DNA of 20,319 bases from an uncultured Eubacteriaceae bacterium. Its GTDB lineage: Bacteria; Bacillota; Clostridia; Eubacteriales; Eubacteriaceae. A program made the position numbers and the translations under genes. The DNA is taken from contig CANQNI010000002.1 in the NCBI GenBank assembly GCA_947625175.1, positions 1-20,319 on the forward strand. Direction: 5' to 3'. How positions within the stretch are numbered: position 1 is the stretch's first letter; each line of letters begins with the position of its first letter. A model generated the notes under the pieces. It ran no database searches, was not told the origin of the DNA, and was given only the letters and a program-made list of their open reading frames with translations. This document shows positions 3,489-19,149 of the stretch, piece after piece.

Positions 3489-4877
3489 TTACAAAACTGA
3501 ATCTTTAAATCCCATAAACCGACGTCCTATAACTAGTGCTGCACTAAAATGGACGTTGAGTTTTCTAAGTTTGGCATATTTTTCTAAACCTATTTTTGTT
3601 GTATAAGCAGGATTAACTTTAGAAAAACCCACTGCCTGTCTGCTGCAGGCTCTTTCGATTGTAGCAACAAACCTCGAATAATCAAAACTGTGAATCATTT
3701 TGTTGTATTTTTTGTTCTTGTTTTTCCTCTGCCGGGCTTTTTTCCTTTTAAAATCCAAATCTTCCACTACGACCGGTTTACCGGCTTTTAAAGCCTGAAG
3801 AGCTATTTTCTTACAAACATCCCTTATTTCAGCCAGAGCCCGGCCACCTGTTCCATGATGGTTTAGTTCTATTCTTTCTAAAGAAATAATATTCCCGCTG
3901 CTCTCTAGTTCAGCTACTGCAAGAAAACCGTCATTATAGTCAATTGCAATAACACCATTATCAGGATCGGTTCGTGGTTCGATCTCATCCGTATCGAAGA
4001 TAATCTGAAGATACCAGTTTCCGTTTTCTCTCTTTTTAAAACGGTAAGTTATCGGACGTTTTCCTTCTTTCTTTGTTGCAGCAGTCAGATAAACTCTCAA
4101 AAGTTCTGCCCCGTAGCGGATTTTGATGCCGCCCGTTTCAATGAATTTCGGCTTCCCTTCTCTCCTGAACGGTAAATCCAAGAGAAGTTTTAATGAAAAG
4201 TTACCGTCTTCCTGAGGCGTCAGCTGCACTATCTGATTTCCACACTTTTCATCGATTCTTCCGATATAGAAGATATTATGGTCTAGAGCTAAATCGTGAT
4301 CTTCTTTCCACTCATCAAAGTTAGAATAACCCGATTCTAAAAGATGAAACTGTGATGAAAACTTTTTCTTTCCGCCAAAAGTCGTAGGAACATGGCCGCT
4401 TTTGATCTGCTTATTTAGCTTATCCTGTTTGATTTTCATTCTGCCGAGCTTACATTTCCATTCATGGAGGGTTTTCTTCTTGTTTCTTAACTCCTCCATC
4501 AGTTCCGGTGTGATGACTTTGTTTCTGGCAAGTTCCTTTAAATTACTGACTCTTGATTGAACCGTTTCTATATCGTCTTCCAGGACTTTGATTTTCTGAC
4601 AGAGTTCCTTTTCCTGTTCCTTCTTCAGTTCAACAAGTGCCTTGTGCCTGCCCCTTTCGCTGCGGACGATCGAATTGGCAGTTCTCGTTAGGATGTTGTA
4701 GTGTTTTTTGATATACTTGGTGTATTCGGGAAAGCTTTTGTATCTGATAAAAAAGCTTTCCGAATTAATGTCATCAAACACTCTACGACTGATTTTCTGG
4801 AATAATCTGACGTTATCGTCCAGATAGTCGTAGAGTGTTTCTGTTTTTGGAAGTAAAGCTTCAACTGTTATTTCCAT
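3489..4877 (-). CDS. tnpB: TnpB-like RNA-guided nuclease family protein (zinc-finger-less variant)
   Basis: A 462-residue protein whose start overlaps the end of tnpA by 17 bases; GAGGAG lies upstream. Residues 80-160 are a long charged coiled coil, followed by the wedge/OB-like region and a C-terminal RuvC-like fold. RuvC-I is VIAIDYNDGFLAVAEL (D313; D316 also nearby) and RuvC-II is PVVVEDLDF (E372). The usual C-terminal zinc finger (two CxxC pairs) is absent, and where canonical TnpB has DRDVNAA this protein has LNVHFSAALVIGRR, so the third catalytic Asp position holds His443. This VHxxAA...VIxRR ending with NPAYTTKIG upstream is, as far as I recall, a recurrent family feature in Bacillota rather than random decay. 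It could be a rearranged active site or a nuclease-poor form. Confidence 0.85.
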   Translation of the reverse strand: MEITVEALLPKTETLYDYLDDNVRLFQKISRRVFDDINSESFFIRYKSFPEYTKYIKKHYNILTRTANSIVRSERGRHKALVELKKEQEKELCQKIKVLEDDIETVQSRVSNLKELARNKVITPELMEELRNKKKTLHEWKCKLGRMKIKQDKLNKQIKSGHVPTTFGGKKKFSSQFHLLESGYSNFDEWKEDHDLALDHNIFYIGRIDEKCGNQIVQLTPQEDGNFSLKLLLDLPFRREGKPKFIETGGIKIRYGAELLRVYLTAATKKEGKRPITYRFKKRENGNWYLQIIFDTDEIEPRTDPDNGVIAIDYNDGFLAVAELESSGNIISLERIELNHHGTGGRALAEIRDVCKKIALQALKAGKPVVVEDLDFKRKKARQRKNKNKKYNKMIHSFDYSRFVATIERACSRQAVGFSKVNPAYTTKIGLEKYAKLRKLNVHFSAALVIGRRFMGFKDSVL

Positions 4878-5463
4878 GTTTTTTTCTCTTTTTCTCCTCT
4901 ATGTTCTTTTCAGCGGTTTTTAACAATTTCTTTTGTTCTTCATAGCCCCGAAGCCTGTAGTATTTTCCTGTAAAAGAAGCTACCAGGCTCATAAAATCCT
5001 GCATCAACTCTTCTGTCAGGCTCTTATCATTTTCATCAAAGGCATAAATCACTTTTACGCCGTAGGAATCAAAGAGTTCTTCAAGATAACGGTTTCCAAA
5101 ACGACTAAGTCTGTCCTTCTGGGTTACCCGGATTGTGTCGATCTTTCCTTCTTTAGCCAGTTTTATCAGACGGTTAAGACCCCTTCGGTTTTCATTTAAG
5201 CCACTTGCCCCATCCTTAATTTCATAGTCAGGCTCCCCATACCTGTCTCGAAGTCTTTCAAGCTGATTTTTAATTAACGTCTTATTGCCGTCGCTGCTTC
5301 TTGCATAATGGGCTGTCCCTTTTTCTTCTGGTGTTATCGGCTGTCCAATAATTCCGAGAATTTCCTCTTTGCTGTAAAGAGTTTGGCCACCCGGTGTTCT
5401 GAAAGCGGTTAATTTACCGGCATCTCTCCATCGTCTGACCGTTTGTGGAGTCACTCGAAGCAT
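4861..5463 (-). CDS. tnpA: IS607-family serine recombinase TnpA
   Basis: A 200-residue protein with an N-terminal MerR-like helix-turn-helix (VTPQTVRRWRDAGKLTAFRT, PGGQTLYSKEEI) and a resolvase catalytic domain: HYARSS with Ser57 as likely nucleophile, TQKDRLSRFG (R118, R121), and a C-terminal charged helix. This order (HTH first, catalytic domain second) defines IS607 transposases. ATG 5463 has GGAG 11 bases upstream, but the frame stays open upstream to 5547 and encodes SERITVGEAAHM, which looks like the first HTH helix (cf. SIGEVAKLL). The upstream part has no ATG, GTG or TTG, so translation may begin at a rare ATA/ATT codon, or the protein has a shortened HTH. The enzyme makes the cut-and-paste circle; tnpB overlaps it. 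Confidence 0.88.
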   Translation of the reverse strand: MLRVTPQTVRRWRDAGKLTAFRTPGGQTLYSKEEILGIIGQPITPEEKGTAHYARSSDGNKTLIKNQLERLRDRYGEPDYEIKDGASGLNENRRGLNRLIKLAKEGKIDTIRVTQKDRLSRFGNRYLEELFDSYGVKVIYAFDENDKSLTEELMQDFMSLVASFTGKYYRLRGYEEQKKLLKTAEKNIEEKKRKKHGNNS

Positions 5464-8325: not shown

Positions 8326-9038
8326 TTAGAGCTTTCTGTATTTAGGATTATAAAAATGATAACAATTTGAAATAGCTTTCTTAATGGTATTCGAAAGATA
8401 GTTTTTATTTTTCTCCCATTTTTCCCTGGCCAGACCACTTTCCCACATAAATTTTTCTATTCTTTCAAAGTCTCCTGCACAAAAGAAGGCAAGAATTCCA
8501 GCTAATCCCATATCTGCTTCACTTTGAGAATTATATCTATCTTCCCACATACCAACGTCATAAAGTGCAATAAATTTCTCTCCCACTTTTGAATCTCTTA
8601 TTTTTCCTAACAAATTAGAATCGCTAATTTTTTTTACTTCTGATAGAATGTCTTTATTGATCTCTTTCGGTTCTTGTTTTATTTCATTCTTCTTTAACAT
8701 GAACATATTCAAGAACCTTTCTAATTTTTCTGTTACGTCCTTTATTTCATCAGTACTTCCTTCAATACGATTACCAGTTACTGTCGAATATCTTCCAGTA
8801 TCAGATAAATAAACCTCAACTTTATTTTGGCTATTCTTTAAGTAATAACGATTAGTGTTTATCTTGAAATTTTCATCTACTTTTATTAAGACATGAATTC
8901 CATTTCCAGATGCCGAAACCTCAGCATAAGAATCAAAATAATTGATTATTTTTTAGCTGCAGGACTTAGTTTTCCGTCCATATAGCTATCGTCAATATCA
9001 ATTAAGCTAATGCCATCTATAAATTGATGAAAACATGT
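8326..9038 (-). pseudogene. Truncated, frameshifted paralogue of the PrimPol gene
   Basis: Reading minus from 9038: FHQFIDGISLIDIDDSYMDG (AEP motif I, DxD), KLSPAAKK, then a shift at the A-run 8949-8954, then IINYFDSYAEVSASGNGIHV (motif II, SGxGxH), VEVYLSDTGRYSTVTG (motif III area) and a C-terminal part GEKFIALYDVGMWEDRYNSQ ending YRKL. Each block lines up with the protein at 10546-11520 (LIDIDD, SPSGCGIHI, LEIYLPDTGRYSTITG, GEKFIDVYDFGNW). One missing A in the A-run (6 instead of 7) explains the shift. The first 95 or so residues are gone; a TAA precedes the surviving part. The ATG at 8712 is internal. Confidence 0.85.
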
Positions 9039-9195
9039 TTAAACAACGATAACTATCCTAATCTTCTCTTTTGAAAACCGACATAATAGGTTAAAAATTA
9101 GAACACCTTTAATGGTGCCTTAAATAACACCTTATATTTGACCCTTTAAAAAGGCGGTGCTAAAATGAGAAAAAATTAGTTTGATAAATTAAAAA

Positions 9196-9420
9196 ATGAA
9201 AGAAGAAAGAATCGTTACGTTACCACATCTAAAACCAAATAAAAGCAGAAAGAAGAAATTCGCTGTTTATTTAAATGATCAAGAATTACAATGGTTAAAA
9301 AAACTAACAGAAGAAACCAATTTTCCTTCTAGAAGTTCTTTTATGGCAGCTCTTCTTGATAGAGAAATTGAAATATATAAAAATATTAAAAGAGAGGCAG
9401 AGAAAAGAGAAAAGGATTAG
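9196..9420 (+). CDS. Small ribbon-helix-helix-like protein
   Basis: A 74-residue basic protein. The middle part, KFAVYLNDQELQWLKKLTEE followed by TNFPSRSSFMAALLDREIE, has the beta-strand plus two-helix look of CopG/MetJ-type DNA-binding proteins, which control copy number or partition on many plasmids. No clear Shine-Dalgarno is visible before ATG 9196. Upstream (9100-9165) are short repeats of CACC/GGTG that can fold. A 7-base hairpin, GGATTAG/CTAATCC (9414-9439), starts at the stop codon but has no T-run. Its place just before the replication-control region suits a copy-control or repressor role, but that is inference. Confidence 0.55.
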   Translation: MKEERIVTLPHLKPNKSRKKKFAVYLNDQELQWLKKLTEETNFPSRSSFMAALLDREIEIYKNIKREAEKREKD

Positions 9421-9467
9421 TGTTTGCTGACGCTAATCCAGGAACTTAAAGCTCAATTTCTTTAAGT
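9414..9467. repeat. Two hairpins after the small RHH-like gene
   Basis: GGATTAG (9414-9420) pairs with CTAATCC (9433-9439); ACTTAAAG (9444-9451) pairs with CTTTAAGT (9460-9467) around an 8-base loop. Neither has a T-run, so they are more likely RNA stability or binding structures than terminators. Confidence 0.4.
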
Positions 9468-9585
9468 GATAAATTCTAAAACATTTGTAATTATATTTAA
9501 CATATTTTTTCAAAAATTTCCTTACTCATTACTTATTAGAGCTTAACTCCTATTTCTTTTCAAAAGGAAGACGCAACCAATTCAA

Positions 9586-9704
9586 ATGAATAAGGATCAA
9601 ATTATTGAACAAATTTGTTCTCAACTTGACTTAGTTGAATTCGCTAGAGAACTTGGAATTAAAATTAAAAAATAGGTCAAGATTATCGAAGAGGGAGTAA
9701 ATAA
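9586..9704 (+). pseudogene. Remnant of a DnaG/CHC2-type primase N-terminus
   Basis: ATG 9586 opens a 29-codon frame, MNKDQIIEQICSQLDLVEF then ARELGIKIKK, stopped by TAG at 9673. Adding one A to the A-run 9667-9672 continues the frame as IGQDYRRGSK to TAA 9702. DnaG-type primases have this layout before their zinc finger (a helix, then LKxxGxxYxGxCPFH). No zinc finger or catalytic part follows. A weak Shine-Dalgarno lies 16 bases upstream. The replication promoter at 9721 follows directly, so the primase gene was probably cut when the control region arrived. Confidence 0.4.
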
Positions 9705-9720
9705 AAGAATATTTATTTTA

Positions 9721-9729
9721 TGTTATAAT
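9721..9729 (+). promoter_or_regulatory. Extended -10 promoter for the replication leader
   Basis: TGTTATAAT (9721-9729) is a consensus extended -10 (TGnTATAAT) with no good -35. The start would be near 9736, giving a leader that runs through the antisense target and the attenuator towards the PrimPol gene. Confidence 0.55.
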
Positions 9730-9738
9730 TTGGTTGGC

Positions 9739-9880
9739 AAAAAAAATGGGTTCTTGCAGGAACCCGTTTATAACGATACTTTCATTGATGTTCTAGCAAT
9801 ACAACAATGAAGGAATCACAAAGTTGGAAGCTCAACTAAGTGACTAGCTAAGCCTATCGTTTAATGTGCACATTTGTACA
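9739..9880 (-). ncRNA. Antisense (countertranscript) RNA, about 140 nt
   Basis: On the minus strand a promoter TTGCAT (9913-9908), a 17-base spacer and TAAAAT (9890-9885) should start an RNA near 9878. It would end at a terminator: GGGTTC/GAACCC stem (9765-9748 on this strand) followed by eight T (9746-9739). The RNA is fully complementary to the leader from 9721 and covers the antiterminator segment 9822-9837. Size, placement and a strong 3' hairpin match the countertranscripts of pT181, pIP501 and pSM19035. Expression is not shown by sequence alone. Confidence 0.65.
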
Positions 9881-9965
9881 CATTATTTTATCAGTTTAGG
9901 CTGTTATATGCAAGGTAATAAAAGGCTTGTCAGTTGAGCTTCCAACTGACAAGCCTTTTGCCTTT
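9822..9965 (+). promoter_or_regulatory. Transcription attenuator of the replication leader
   Basis: The terminator is AAAAGGCTTGTCAGTTG (9920-9936), a 6-base loop and its exact complement (9943-9959), followed by GCCTTTTT. The leader segment AGTTGGAAGCTCAACT (9822-9837) is the exact complement of 9932-9947, the top of that hairpin. If 9822-9837 pairs forward, the terminator cannot form; if the antisense RNA occupies 9822-9837, the terminator forms and transcription stops. The hairpin has T/A runs on both sides and may also stop minus-strand transcripts. Confidence 0.68.
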
Positions 9966-9989
9966 TTAATTTGGTTATATAGTTGAGTG

Positions 9990-10320
9990 AAAACCAAAGG
10001 GGATATAGTCGCCCTCTTTGGAAGTAACTTGAAGACTGGCCGTCTTGCAAGCGGTTGAGGGGGGTTAGAGCCTGCTACTTACCTATTCCTCCAGACCGGT
10101 GCGACCGTCCTGTGGTTTTGTACGACCAGGGGGGTGCAGGGACTATGTGGATTCGGTTTGCCTTATGTATTAAGTCGGCAGGCTTTTTTATAAGGCAAAA
10201 CGGCATAACGCAGTAACGGCAGACCTGGATGCGTCTGACCTGCATCGGAGCCTCTCAGGCTTCTAGCTGTACAACCAGCTACCTTCCCTCAAAAGTAATT
10301 ATACACTATTTACTTTATTA
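9990..10320 (+). ncRNA. GC-rich structured noncoding region, possible large RNA
   Basis: This stretch is far richer in G and C than its surroundings, and has no gene longer than 23 codons. Pairings I can see: a closing stem ATAGTC-CC (10005-10013, one bulged G) with GGGACTAT (10139-10146); TTGAAGAC/GTCTTGCAA (10029-10050); TTTGCCTTAT/ATAAGGCAAA (10157-10166, 10190-10199); GATGC/GCATC (10228-10246); GAGCCT/AGGCTT (10248-10262); AGCTG/CAGCT (10265-10280). The strand is not fixed; plus is assumed because it lies between the leader and the PrimPol gene. I do not recognise it as a known class: no T-box, tmRNA, RNase P or group II domain V motif is visible. It could be part of the replication leader or an independent ornate RNA. 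Confidence 0.5.
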
Positions 10321-10323
10321 AGA

Positions 10324-10419
10324 GGGGGGTAGCTCTTTAAACACGCTGGTTTAGTGCTACGCACATAAACCTACCCCTTAAACTCTTTTTATTAATAGTG
10401 TTTAAAGAGCTTAAGGGGT
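10324..10419 (+). promoter_or_regulatory. Leader with mutually exclusive RNA pairings before PrimPol
   Basis: AGCTCTTTAAACAC (10331-10344) is exactly complementary to 10398-10411. GGGGTAG (10326-10332) can pair with CTACCCC (10371-10377), and ACCCCTTAA (10373-10381) can pair with TTAAGGGGT (10411-10419), which would break the previous pair. Inside is a firm hairpin, GGTTTAGTGC/GCAC-A-TAAACC (10348-10371). The arrangement suggests a second switch controlling PrimPol expression, or an origin fold. Confidence 0.5.
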
Positions 10420-10433
10420 GTTTAACCTCCCTA

Positions 10434-10518
10434 GAATATATAAATATATATTCCTGAGAAACCGTGTATTTCTAGTGTTTAATATGTGTTTATTTAGTAT
10501 ATCCCGTAGGGATATACT
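10434..10518. repeat. AT palindrome and 23-base hairpin upstream of PrimPol
   Basis: GAATATATA/TATATATTC (10434-10453) is an AT-only palindrome. AGTATATCCC (10496-10505) and GGGATATACT (10509-10518) form a perfect 10-base stem with loop GTA, ending 27 bases before the start codon. It could be an operator, an mRNA hairpin, or part of the origin. Confidence 0.5.
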
Positions 10519-10545
10519 GCGGCATTGTCTTAAAGAAAGGAAGCT

Positions 10546-11520
10546 ATGAAGAAATCTAAAAATACATCTAATAGTTTTAAGAATGAAGATATTTTAATAA
10601 GTAATAGTGTATGTTGGGAAAATATTCCTAATGAATTAAAAAATAATGGTCTTTTTTGTTGCTATAAAGCTCAGAGAACAAAAGAAGGCCATTATAATAA
10701 AACGCCTTTTATTCCTGTCAATGGAAATCCAGCTGATGTTTCTGATCCCTCTACATTTAGATCTTATCAGGAAGCAAAAGACGATTTTAATTGGGAAGCT
10801 AACGGATATCATGGTGTTGGAGTACTCTTAACTAATAATATTGGTCTTATTGACATAGATGATTGCTATTTATTTGGTGACTTATCTCCTTTAGCTAAAC
10901 ACATCATAGAAAAAATGAATACCTATACGGAAATCTCTCCTTCTGGTTGTGGAATTCATATCCTCTTTAAAGTAAAAAATAACTTTAAAATTAGCACAAA
11001 AAAATATTACATAAAAAATCCAAATAATAATTTAGAGATATATCTTCCGGATACAGGACGTTATTCAACTATTACAGGACAGCATCTTGTTGGAACACCT
11101 AAACAAATTAAAATCAGAAGTGATGAAATTTTAGAAGTTTTTAATGAGTATATGCGTAGAAAATCTAGTAATTTCAAAATTAAAAAGCCACAAAAGGAAA
11201 ACCCTGATTCCAAAGATAAGATAAAAAAAATGAGTGATAAGGAACTTTTAAGAAGAATTAGAGTATCAAAATCAGGAGAAAAGTTTATAGACGTTTATGA
11301 TTTTGGAAACTGGAGAAAACATTTTAAAAGTCAAAGTGAAGCTGATATGTACTTAGCTGGTCTTTTTGCATTCTTTACTGGCAAAGATACTGAAAGAATA
11401 AGTCAGTTGATGTTAGAAAGTCCACTTTACAGACAAAAATGGAACACTAATAAGAATTATCTTGAAAGAACTATTGAGAAAGCAATTAAAAATTGCAAAA
11501 TTAACTATAATCCAAAATAA
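10546..11520 (+). CDS. PrimPol-type primase-polymerase / replication protein
   Basis: A 324-residue protein, start ATG 10546 with AAAGGA six bases upstream. The N-terminal part carries the bifunctional primase pattern CCYKAQRTKEGHYNKTPFIP plus a DPSTFRSYQEA segment, then archaeo-eukaryotic primase motifs: I, GLIDIDD (D103, D105); II, SPSGCGIHI (H138); III, LEIYLPDTGRYSTITG (E164). The C-terminal part (about 230-324, GEKFIDVYDFGNW, SEADMYLAGLFAFF) resembles the small helical domain found behind NrS-1-like phage polymerases. No helicase domain is present, so it would rely on a host or other helicase. It follows the attenuator and structured leader, which points to a role as replication initiator or primer maker. 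A frameshifted paralogue is at 8326-9038 and a C-terminal scrap at 11527-11601. Confidence 0.82.
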   Translation: MKKSKNTSNSFKNEDILISNSVCWENIPNELKNNGLFCCYKAQRTKEGHYNKTPFIPVNGNPADVSDPSTFRSYQEAKDDFNWEANGYHGVGVLLTNNIGLIDIDDCYLFGDLSPLAKHIIEKMNTYTEISPSGCGIHILFKVKNNFKISTKKYYIKNPNNNLEIYLPDTGRYSTITGQHLVGTPKQIKIRSDEILEVFNEYMRRKSSNFKIKKPQKENPDSKDKIKKMSDKELLRRIRVSKSGEKFIDVYDFGNWRKHFKSQSEADMYLAGLFAFFTGKDTERISQLMLESPLYRQKWNTNKNYLERTIEKAIKNCKINYNPK

Positions 11521-12625: not shown

Positions 12626-13471
12626 TTAGACAAAATAATAGTTAACATCTACAGGAAGATCCTGGCCAGCCATAAGTTTGTACTGGCTACTATAAGATGG
12701 TTCTCCAAATTGATTTGGACTAAACTTTTCATCTGGAATAAAAATTTTATAGGCTTTGGGAACTTTTAAGTTCCTTGATTTAAAATAAGCTTTTGACTTG
12801 TACTCCCTCTTATCCAAGTCTTTGGAGAAATATTTACTAATGTAGAGACCTCTTTTTTTACTATCGATCTTTTTTATCTTATTGATCTTTACAAATCCAA
12901 GACGCCAGAGCTCTTCTATTTTTGATGTAGGAATAAAGGGAAAGGAAAATAAAATAACATGGTAATGAATGAGTCCAGACTTGGTACGCTCCCAAGTGGC
13001 TAAATATTTGAGCGGCATATCCGGAAAATTTTTCTCTAAATAATATTTAAGCCTTCTAATGAACTTATCAAAGTTATAGTTTGAAACTTTAATGTCTTTA
13101 CAAAATGGCTCCTTAGAATCCTGGGTTAAAGTCAGAAATGAGGTTTTATCGTCGAAGTTTAAGTCGACAATCCTGCGGACTTCATTTTGTCTATTTTTAT
13201 AATAATTCTTTCTCTTAATTAAGCTTTCAACCCTCTCATATCCCTTTTTGTTTTTAGACTTATTTGAAGTGCTGGTATCTTTAGAGTAGCCAATTTTAAT
13301 GGGTCTTTTATAGCGCCACAGTTCAACATTGGATTTTGTATGGATAATCTTAGTGTTGTAGTATTTTTTTTCGTGAGATGTTTTCTTATTAATCAAGTTA
13401 ACTAGAGTGTGGACCAACGGGGGACATTCCATTCGGTTCGGCTCTGCCGACCCGCCGCTCCGCCGGTCCAC
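12626..13471 (-). CDS. HUH-type rolling-circle initiator/relaxase
   Basis: 281 residues if started at GTG 13471. Motifs: FLTLTQ (112-117, motif I), GLIHYHVILFSFPFI with the HUH pair H169/H171 (motif II), and GLYISKYFSKDL with Y210 and Y214 (motif III, catalytic tyrosine candidates), then YKSKAYFKSRNLKVP as in Rep proteins of small mobile elements. It nicks one DNA strand and stays joined to its 5' end, starting rolling-circle replication or transfer. The first 13 codons lie in a GC-rich cruciform and read like non-coding sequence (DRRSGGSAEPNR), so the true start may be ATG 13432 (MECPPLVHTL), although no good Shine-Dalgarno is seen. It follows the TcpA/FtsK gene, as orf20 follows orf21 in Tn916-like elements. 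Confidence 0.82.
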   Translation of the reverse strand: MDRRSGGSAEPNRMECPPLVHTLVNLINKKTSHEKKYYNTKIIHTKSNVELWRYKRPIKIGYSKDTSTSNKSKNKKGYERVESLIKRKNYYKNRQNEVRRIVDLNFDDKTSFLTLTQDSKEPFCKDIKVSNYNFDKFIRRLKYYLEKNFPDMPLKYLATWERTKSGLIHYHVILFSFPFIPTSKIEELWRLGFVKINKIKKIDSKKRGLYISKYFSKDLDKREYKSKAYFKSRNLKVPKAYKIFIPDEKFSPNQFGEPSYSSQYKLMAGQDLPVDVNYYFV

Positions 13472-17985: not shown

Positions 17986-18014
17986 AGAAAGGCTCCACAG
18001 TGTGGAGCCTTTCT
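17986..18014. terminator. Bidirectional terminator, copy 1, at the 3' end of the DUF1016 gene
   Basis: A perfect palindrome with 14-base arms (AGAAAGGCTCCACA, one central G, exact complement), touching the TAG of the DUF1016 gene at 18015. The GGCTCCAC/GTGGAGCC core with AAA/TTT flanks is terminator-like on both strands. A 31-base identical copy lies at 19121-19151. Confidence 0.65.
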
Positions 18015-19052
18015 CTAACTATCCTCATTTTCAAGAGCGAATAATTCTCTTGAAGCTTGAATTCTTTCTTTGAGCTTTTTTTCTAAAGCTTTCATGTCCG
18101 GAATTTCAAGAAGATAACTGGCCGCTCTAAGATTTTCTTTATTGAGTTCCAGAAGTTCAAAATAATCTTTTTTAATATCGGTACAAAGAATAAGGCCAAT
18201 AGGTGGATTTTCTCCTTCCTGTTTTTCATATTTTTCAAGCCAGTTTAAATAAAGCTCCATCTGACCCTTATCCTGAGCTTTAAAAGGACGAGTTTTTAAA
18301 TCAATAGCTACTAAGCATTTTAGTTTGCGGTGATAAAATAATAAATCAATAAAGTAATCATCTTCATCTATCTGAATCCGGTATTGTCTGGCAATAAAAG
18401 AAAAATCTGTTCCAAATTCTTTAATCGTATTTTCAATATCGTTAATTAAGGCCTTTTCTAAATCTTTTTCAAGATAATCAGGTTTTAAATTTAGAAAATC
18501 TAGGATATAAGGATCCTTAAAGGCTAAATCAGGAGATAAAATATGGATTTTCCTGAATTGCTCAAGTTCCTTTTTTACTATTGGTTCAGGATTCTGACTT
18601 ATAAGAGTTCGTTCATAAAGAAGACTATTTTTTTGCTTTTGAAGCTCTCGAACACTCCAGCGATTATTTTGAGCCATTAGAATAAAAAATTCACGTTTTA
18701 AAGGCTCTTTGATATACATAATCTCACGAATAACAGACCAGCTCAGAGAGGTTATCATTTCTTTAAGATATTCATAATCTTTAAAGGTTCGATAAAAGTA
18801 ACTAAAGCTTCTAAGTTGTTTAACGCTCCAGCCACGTCCAAATTCCTGAGTTAACTGCTTTGATAGAATTTCCAGTTTTTTCTTTCCATAATCTTCCTTA
18901 TTATCAGTAAGAATCCGTTCATTAATTAAACGGCCAATATTAAAATATAGCCATGACATCTCGGAATTAATATATTGATAAGTCCTATTTTTGCTCTCGG
19001 TTATCAGTTCTTTAATCTCTTCAAATAGATTCAGATCCAAATCATTTTCCAT
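18015..19052 (-). CDS. DUF1016/YhcG-family PD-(D/E)XK nuclease
   Basis: 345 residues, full length for the family. The N-terminal DUF1016_N part holds YFNIGRLINERILT, YGKKKLEILSKQLTQEFGRG and WSVKQLRSFSYFYRTF; the C-terminal nuclease has FIARQYRIQIDEDDYFIDLL with D236, then LVAIDLKTRPFKAQDKGQME. The usual ELK is IDLK here (D251, K253), a conservative E-to-D change in the catalytic triad that could lower or alter activity. The tail is charged. Members are common next to restriction and other defence genes and on mobile elements; the biochemical target is not firmly known. ATG 19052 has no strong Shine-Dalgarno; a TATAAA-like box (GATAAAAT) lies about 15 bases upstream. It is a stand-alone gene between two identical terminators. 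Confidence 0.85.
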   Translation of the reverse strand: MENDLDLNLFEEIKELITESKNRTYQYINSEMSWLYFNIGRLINERILTDNKEDYGKKKLEILSKQLTQEFGRGWSVKQLRSFSYFYRTFKDYEYLKEMITSLSWSVIREIMYIKEPLKREFFILMAQNNRWSVRELQKQKNSLLYERTLISQNPEPIVKKELEQFRKIHILSPDLAFKDPYILDFLNLKPDYLEKDLEKALINDIENTIKEFGTDFSFIARQYRIQIDEDDYFIDLLFYHRKLKCLVAIDLKTRPFKAQDKGQMELYLNWLEKYEKQEGENPPIGLILCTDIKKDYFELLELNKENLRAASYLLEIPDMKALEKKLKERIQASRELFALENEDS

Positions 19053-19116: not shown

Positions 19117-19149
19117 AGAGAAAGGCTCCACAGTGTGGAGCCTTTCTCT
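19117..19149. terminator. Bidirectional terminator, copy 2, upstream of the DUF1016 gene
   Basis: A perfect palindrome of 16-base arms around one G, containing the same AGAAAGGCTCCACA arm as copy 1 and the same following CTAA. It lies 65 bases upstream of the DUF1016 start and before the plus-strand gene at 19241, so it may insulate the two. Confidence 0.65.

Follow-up and report, generated by a model that had tools for sequence, protein, structure and literature searches.

How might the PrimPol gene of a plasmid-like element, probably its replication gene, be controlled by the DNA in front of it? The gene lies in a stretch of 20,319 nucleotides, referred to here as the window, which makes up the entire contig C2 of a genome of 1.6 Mb in 238 contigs. 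An initial annotation of this stretch proposed that the gene is preceded by a transcription attenuator under the control of an antisense RNA. Judged from sequence and thermodynamics, this reading is probably correct. What is new about the locus is how known parts are combined; it does not represent a new kind of system.

In the proposed mechanism, RNA polymerase would start near position 9736 and produce a leader RNA. As long as no antisense RNA is bound, the leader segment 9822-9837 would pair with the 5' arm of the emerging terminator, its loop, and the first part of its 3' arm. The antiterminator formed in this way would allow transcription to proceed in the direction of PrimPol. The antisense RNA, ~140 nt long, starting near 9878 and ending at 9739, would bind the leader and withdraw 9822-9837 from this competition, so that the terminator at 9919-9960 forms. 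In other words, more copies of the element would mean more antisense RNA and less PrimPol, and the copy number would be held down. The features on which the argument draws are collected in the table.

Table. Positions of the features discussed, numbered from the first nucleotide of the window.
Feature	Position	Strand	Basis and remarks
Sense (leader) promoter, extended -10 TGTTATAAT	9721-9729	+	Letters checked; predicted start ~9736
Antisense promoter TTGCAT-17-TAAAAT (-35 at 9913-9908, -10 at 9890-9885)	9885-9913	-	Letters checked; position weight matrix (PWM)
Terminator of the antisense RNA, GGGTTC-CTGCAA-GAACCC-A-T8, 6-bp stem	9739-9765	-	Terminator scan and letters
Predicted antisense (counter-transcript) RNA, ~140 nt	9739-9878	-	Ends predicted from promoter and terminator
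Predicted attenuated leader RNA, ~230 nt	9736-9965	+	From promoter to attenuator
Hairpin A (antiterminator arm) AGTTGGAAGCTCAACT, the complement of the terminator top	9822-9837	+	Complementarity, folding, shuffles
Intrinsic terminator (attenuator), 17-18 bp stem	about 9919-9966	+	Terminator scan, folding
324-aa PrimPol of NrS-1 type (AEP domain and PF22763) without a helicase; presumably the gene under attenuator control	10546-11520	+	Pfam, profile, model
Truncated second copy of PrimPol, aligned to residues 117-324 and with one stop	8341-8958	-	Protein comparison
Match to Rfam EGFOA RNA (RF02955) in the long leader	10085-10246	+	Covariance model
All four GTGTTTAA copies of the window, clustered, and competing inverted repeats	10331-10482	+	Word and repeat search
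Strong promoter-like site TTGACC-17-TGCTAAAAT before the ribbon-helix-helix (RHH)-like gene	9138-9166	+	Score 15.4, best plus-strand site in 9000-10620
74-aa RHH-like protein (predicted strand-helix-helix)	9196-9420	+	Structure model
Rolling-circle-type Rep	12626-13471		PF23343 and PHROG "rolling circle DNA replication initiation"

The extended -10 element claimed for the sense promoter is present letter for letter. It is a perfect extended -10 without a -35 box (the -35 position reads ATAAAA), and the promoter is thus of the extended -10 type only. The opposing promoter is also where it had been placed, and it is better than claimed. Its -35 box agrees with the consensus at three of six positions, and a TGA precedes its -10 box, making it an extended -10 promoter as well, a detail absent from the initial annotation. 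In a PWM with hand-set weights, the antisense promoter is the top minus-strand site in 9000-10620, with a score of 11.3; the sense promoter (7.9) ranks second on the plus strand of this interval and falls below 8.6, the level reached once per kb. Scores of at least 9.6 occur at ~1 site per 2 kb per strand in the window. A simple promoter scan, which returned 6 promoter-like sites compared to 9.5 in shuffled sequences, listed neither promoter because both -35 boxes are weak. The antisense terminator with its run of eight T is well formed, and the arms of the 17-bp sense terminator (9920-9936 and 9943-9959) pair at 17 of 17 positions, as had been stated. Terminator-like sites in 9000-11500 number 4, against 1.3 expected (sd 1.0). 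Two other candidates, a type I toxin-antitoxin system and leader-peptide attenuation, were set aside; the leader seems, by eye, to hold very short frames only.

The claimed complementarity of 16 leader bases (9822-9837) to the top of the terminator (9932-9947) is exact (16/16), and the paired stretch takes in the loop of that top together with its two arms. The upstream segment, AGTTG-GAAGCT-CAACT, is a hairpin in its own right whose loop complements the terminator loop AGCTTC. None of 5000 dinucleotide shuffles of 9721-9918 reached 16 bases, the best being 13. Likewise, none of 464 terminators in 71 loci of PrimPol relatives had an exact upstream complement of at least 12 within 250 nt, a harsh cut that would miss the known attenuator of plasmid pSM19035 with its complement of 11. 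Complements of 10-11 occurred at two of these terminators, both in a single locus (L080) and neither upstream of a PrimPol-like gene; even at a cut of 10, no match was found within 1500 nt upstream of the PrimPol match in the 71 loci. Folding of the predicted 230-nt leader yields -82.9 kcal/mol, which corresponds to z -8.4 relative to 200 shuffles.

Could the complementarity have arisen because the terminator hairpin was copied, leaving two similar palindromes that regulate nothing? Both segments are indeed hairpins with near-identical arms, and the searches described below returned no relatives that would show selection. However, the loops are exactly complementary, and the spacing and order of the segments suit a switch. 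Furthermore, the competing arm lies precisely between the antisense promoter and terminator, and in pSM19035, by eye, an upstream hairpin likewise copies the arms of the terminator. A regulation-free origin of the complementarity is very improbable.

How would the two helices compete as the leader is being made? The nascent RNA was represented by partition-function folds of growing transcripts, and coverage by the antisense RNA was modelled by making 9739-9878 unavailable for pairing. In the free leader, the probability of the best antiterminator pair stayed at 0.97-1.00 while the transcript ended between 9939 and 9954, and was still 0.88 at 9957. It dropped to 0.07 at end 9960, where the terminator is slightly better. 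With 9739-9878 blocked, the best terminator pair reached 0.26 at 9948, 0.95 at 9951, and 1.00 from 9954 onwards. The helices are balanced, as the 16-bp duplex has -26.1 kcal/mol and the terminator hairpin -27.2; the hairpin at 9822-9837, whose arms copy those of the terminator top, is weak (-4.2 kcal/mol). The equilibrium fold of the free leader at 9960 also gives the terminator (0.93), and antitermination must therefore be kinetic.

The interval of transcript ends over which blocking matters is 7 nt in the window and at most 5 nt among 161 control terminators, which were taken from the 71 loci (stem of at least 9, 184 nt of upstream sequence available) and folded with a fixed geometry. The known pSM19035 attenuator gave an interval of 2, a value reached by 12 of the 161 controls; thus, the interval test ranks the window first, yet it is not a sharp classifier. 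Layout and nascent-RNA calculation fit the countertranscript attenuation logic that the initial annotation had recognized, and the pSM19035 attenuator was found by the same kind of screen.

Is it unusual for such an attenuator to precede a PrimPol gene? The initial annotation had called the pairing unusual, which is mostly wrong, for antisense attenuation of a primase-type initiator is already known. The Rep proteins of pAMbeta1 and pSM19035 carry a PriCT_1 primase domain, and we take RepE and RepS, by their names, to be the proteins of these two plasmids. Passages of PMC5703833 group the Inc18 initiators, that of pIP501 included, as PriCT_1 plasmids and describe Cop together with antisense attenuation for them. 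Passages of PMC5862659 assign RepE/RepS and the Rep of ColE2 to the Prim-Pol clade, and group primases like that of NrS-1 with the PrimPol proper family; neither pSM19035 nor pIP501 occurs in the searched main text. Among the matches listed in a search of open-access literature, no case of antisense attenuation with a PrimPol of the NrS-1 branch appeared.

The likeness to Inc18 plasmids covers the intrinsic terminator, the gene for a small DNA-binding protein upstream, and the primase-type Rep, as far as these plasmids are treated in passages of PMC4981023 and PMC5703833. According to the same passages, the antisense RNA of pIP501 is 136 nt long and lies in the rep leader, which compares with ~140 nt predicted here. 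In pSM19035 (L110), the screen at a stem limit of 6 found a terminator of 15 bp at 533-567. Its complement of 11 nt, 147 nt upstream, falls by eye within the hairpin that copies the terminator arms, and the Rfam family Plasmid_RNAIII (RF00235) matches at 349-479 on the minus strand, an antisense position similar to that in the window. The layouts are alike, whereas the letters differ: RF00235 is matched in pSM19035, but the window has no match to it at the gathering level, nor does 9600-10600 have one when E values up to 5 are allowed. The Inc18 Rep carries PriCT_1 and a helix-turn-helix (HTH) part, but the window PrimPol has PF22763 instead, and a profile comparison of PrimPol with RepE/RepR gave a probability of 0.2%, the RepE/RepR profile being built from two near-identical sequences. 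The terminator lies 71 nt from the gene in pSM19035 but 580 nt from it here, with the EGFOA match in between.

The RNAI/repC system of pT181 follows the same logic in that its antisense RNA favours the terminator over an upstream leader pairing, as described in passages of PMC5703833. The pT181 RNA is 87 nt long, and RepC is a Rep_trans rolling-circle initiator; Rep_trans had no Pfam match among 17 of the 32 listed ORFs of the window. Antisense RNA control beside a primase-type replication protein also occurs with the Rep of ColE2, where it acts on translation. Another such neighbourhood is found in pSYSA, whose asRNA1 is antisense to a small gene and acts together with RNase E, according to passages of PMC9978351.

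The PrimPol protein belongs to the branch of the phage NrS-1 primase-polymerase by profile and by fold. A profile of nine sequences matched the DNA primase 7ola at E 3.1e-64 and the phage NrS-1 primase-polymerase at E 2.8e-58, and the AEP motif residues D103, D105, and H138 are invariant across the nine sequences. A structure search with the AlphaFold model (pLDDT 86.7, pTM 0.60) returned NrS-1 structures first (E 1.7e-17) and the PrimPol of pRN1 next. The TM-scores were modest (best 0.48 by query length, rmsd 11.9), which may reflect a different placement of the domains. Unlike the phage protein, the window PrimPol consists of the primase and PF22763 part only and has no helicase domain. The end of the truncated second copy is 71% identical over 109 aa to a PrimPol on a 3.9-kb contig (C158) of the same genome, to which the intact PrimPol is 55% identical over 100 aa. 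A 29-codon frame at 9586-9675 (+) looks, by eye, like the beginning of a primase of the phage or DnaG type and is possibly a remnant.

Does PrimPol set the copy number? In the preferred reading PrimPol would limit replication; either PrimPol or the rolling-circle-type Rep could be the rate-limiting initiator. It is conceivable, though doubtful, that PrimPol is a plasmid primase while Rep initiates, in which case the attenuator would tune the supply of primers rather than copy number. PrimPol stops after PF22763 and has no match to the HTH and helicase parts that many initiators carry, and Rep matches PF23343 and a PHROG named for rolling-circle initiation. On the 3.9-kb contig (L107), the end of a PrimPol gene also shares one strand with relatives of Rep, of the FtsK-like protein, and of a 120-aa protein. 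Against this, an FtsK-like protein and a rolling-circle Rep can form a transfer module, as is known from Tn916-type elements. Moreover, antisense attenuation classically acts on the rate-limiting rep gene, as in the treatment of pIP501 in passages of PMC4981023. A primase role of PrimPol is compatible with the attenuator itself.

The distance from terminator to gene counts against the preferred reading, as do the sense promoter that has no -35 box, the equilibrium fold of the free leader, the reduced PrimPol, the presence of a Rep, and the failure of the searches below to return a relative with this leader. What does the long leader contain? The part at 9975-10349 has ~50% GC and holds the match to EGFOA, an orphan Rfam family typed as an sRNA gene. 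The match passes narrowly (39.4 bits against a gathering score of 37.7; E 0.00038 for the whole window) and contains a 55-base insert. EGFOA was found in 1 of 40 genomes of the family, 2 of 398 in a phylum sample, and 2 of 391 in a class sample, own genome counted each time; the second match of the class sample is below gathering. One of the other matches lies near an Rhs-like fragment (L004, by eye from the translation), and the one below gathering (L111) lies near a gene that resembles, by eye, a type I restriction specificity subunit; neither has a recognized replication gene nearby in the 1.7-3.1 kb of sequence at hand. EGFOA was absent from the 12 scanned PrimPol loci out of the 71, its core pattern matched no viral contig, and an open-access literature search for EGFOA or RF02955 returned nothing relevant.

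Alternatively, a real attenuator might not govern PrimPol. The 230-nt leader and its antisense RNA would then be a self-contained pair, and EGFOA and PrimPol would be transcribed from promoters downstream of 9965. The 580-nt gap, the composition and sRNA-typed family of the region behind the terminator, and the neighbours of EGFOA in the two other genomes speak for such an arrangement. However, 9965-10545 contains no plus-strand promoter at the one-per-kb level (the best site has a PWM score of 7.0 and a 15-nt spacer). This favours transcription from upstream, yet does not prove it because the sense promoter itself scores little more. In addition, passages of PMC4981023 and PMC5703833 locate such attenuators in the leader of the rep gene in described plasmids. 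Independent transcription of PrimPol is unlikely, and the preferred reading is that transcripts escaping the attenuator would run on for the 580 bases to the PrimPol gene.

The four copies of GTGTTTAA, a word picked after looking at the sequence, fall within 146 nt, and 2 of 100 whole-window shuffles hold four or more. The inverted repeats 10331-10344/10398-10411 and 10373-10388/10404-10419 (+) overlap and are mutually exclusive. Cluster and repeats may represent an origin or an RNA structure, and the repeats at 10331-10419 look like a second switch or an origin. One could imagine a two-stage RNA control in which EGFOA and the helices at 10331-10419 act as a second switch or an origin, and the leader RNA or the GTGTTTAA cluster guides priming by PrimPol. 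This extension is improbable; if it were true, EGFOA would gain a role and RNA copy control would be tied directly to priming by PrimPol.

The gene upstream of the attenuator encodes the 74-aa RHH-like protein. Its model (pLDDT 81.9, from a two-sequence alignment) has strands at residues 3-8 and 21-26 and helices at 28-40 and 46-73. The protein has no Pfam match at E 0.001, no NCBIfam match at 0.1, and one weak match to a PHROG of unknown function; one relative (P0048) is 90% identical over 85% of the length. Its location makes it a candidate Cop-type repressor, a role for which CopR of pIP501 in passages of PMC4981023 is a positional precedent. CopR is an HTH_XRE protein, in contrast to the RHH-like protein here. 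The window also encodes ParA, the rolling-circle-type Rep, and the FtsK-like protein, which point to a mobile replicon. The Pfam score for FtsK is under its cut-off, and plasmid matches to the FtsK-like protein are 34-35% identical. The contig ends show no exact end-to-start overlap that would indicate a circle.

Is the leader conserved together with the gene? Plasmid, phage, genome, and viral searches returned no relative with the same leader. Plasmid and phage collections held no nucleotide relatives of 9600-10600. Among 67 genomes of the order, six besides the own genome matched 9600-10545 over 24-43 bases; in the one of these examined (L097), the match lies, by eye, between a tRNA and an integrase-like frame, and no attenuator was seen. 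The single PrimPol protein found no relatives in viral contigs, and the PrimPol profile picked up relatives at 20 loci of genome contigs and 51 of viral contigs, with an identity of 38% for the best one. Counted by genome, and with the own genome included each time, relatives occurred in the family (2 of 40), the order (7 of 67), and, at E 1e-30, the class (27 of 391). The closest proteins, P0002 (52%) and P0003 (47%), are absent from the matches of the genome and viral scans, which used short peptide patterns on drawn samples; absence in these scans is therefore weak.

Under one strict rule, none of the fetched PrimPol relatives has a comparable attenuator upstream of the gene, the upstream sequence being shorter than 1000 bases in 5 of the first 71 loci and at most 1500 in the later whole-genome loci. 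Among 91 terminators in L082-L108, the sole matches of at least 12 (L088 and L096) are copies of the window, and one place covered by the overlapping loci L087 and L091 has an AT-rich 10-nt match ~850 nt upstream of a PrimPol-like match. No complement of at least 10 was found among 64 terminators in L112-L136, a screen that left out nine class matches without a locus or already known. In 44 viral contigs sharing the 16-mer (L137-L180), one of 196 terminators had a complement of 10. In 7 of these 44 contigs, the 16-mer itself lies within a terminator-like hairpin, but no upstream partner of at least 10 accompanies it. The screen missed the attenuator of pAMbeta1; it therefore overlooks real cases, and its absences count little.

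If the attenuator reading is true, antisense attenuation would be a module joined to replication proteins of different branches, among them a branch of primase-polymerases known mainly from phages. The locus would then be a compact, testable copy-control unit. The orphan EGFOA RNA, placed inside a replication leader, would likewise obtain a testable context.

The window carries further elements. An IS607-like unit at 3489-5463 (-) combines an HTH-resolvase protein (PF00239) with a protein that is TnpB-like by eye and has no Pfam match at E 0.001. Near the contig edge, 248-1135 (+) holds the end of a restriction-modification gene, with target recognition and C-terminal domains of the MmeI type. 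Two perfect hairpins at 17986-18014 and 19117-19149 share the arm AGAAAGGCTCCACA and flank a DUF1016/YhcG gene at 18015-19052; they are possibly the ends of a small mobile unit.
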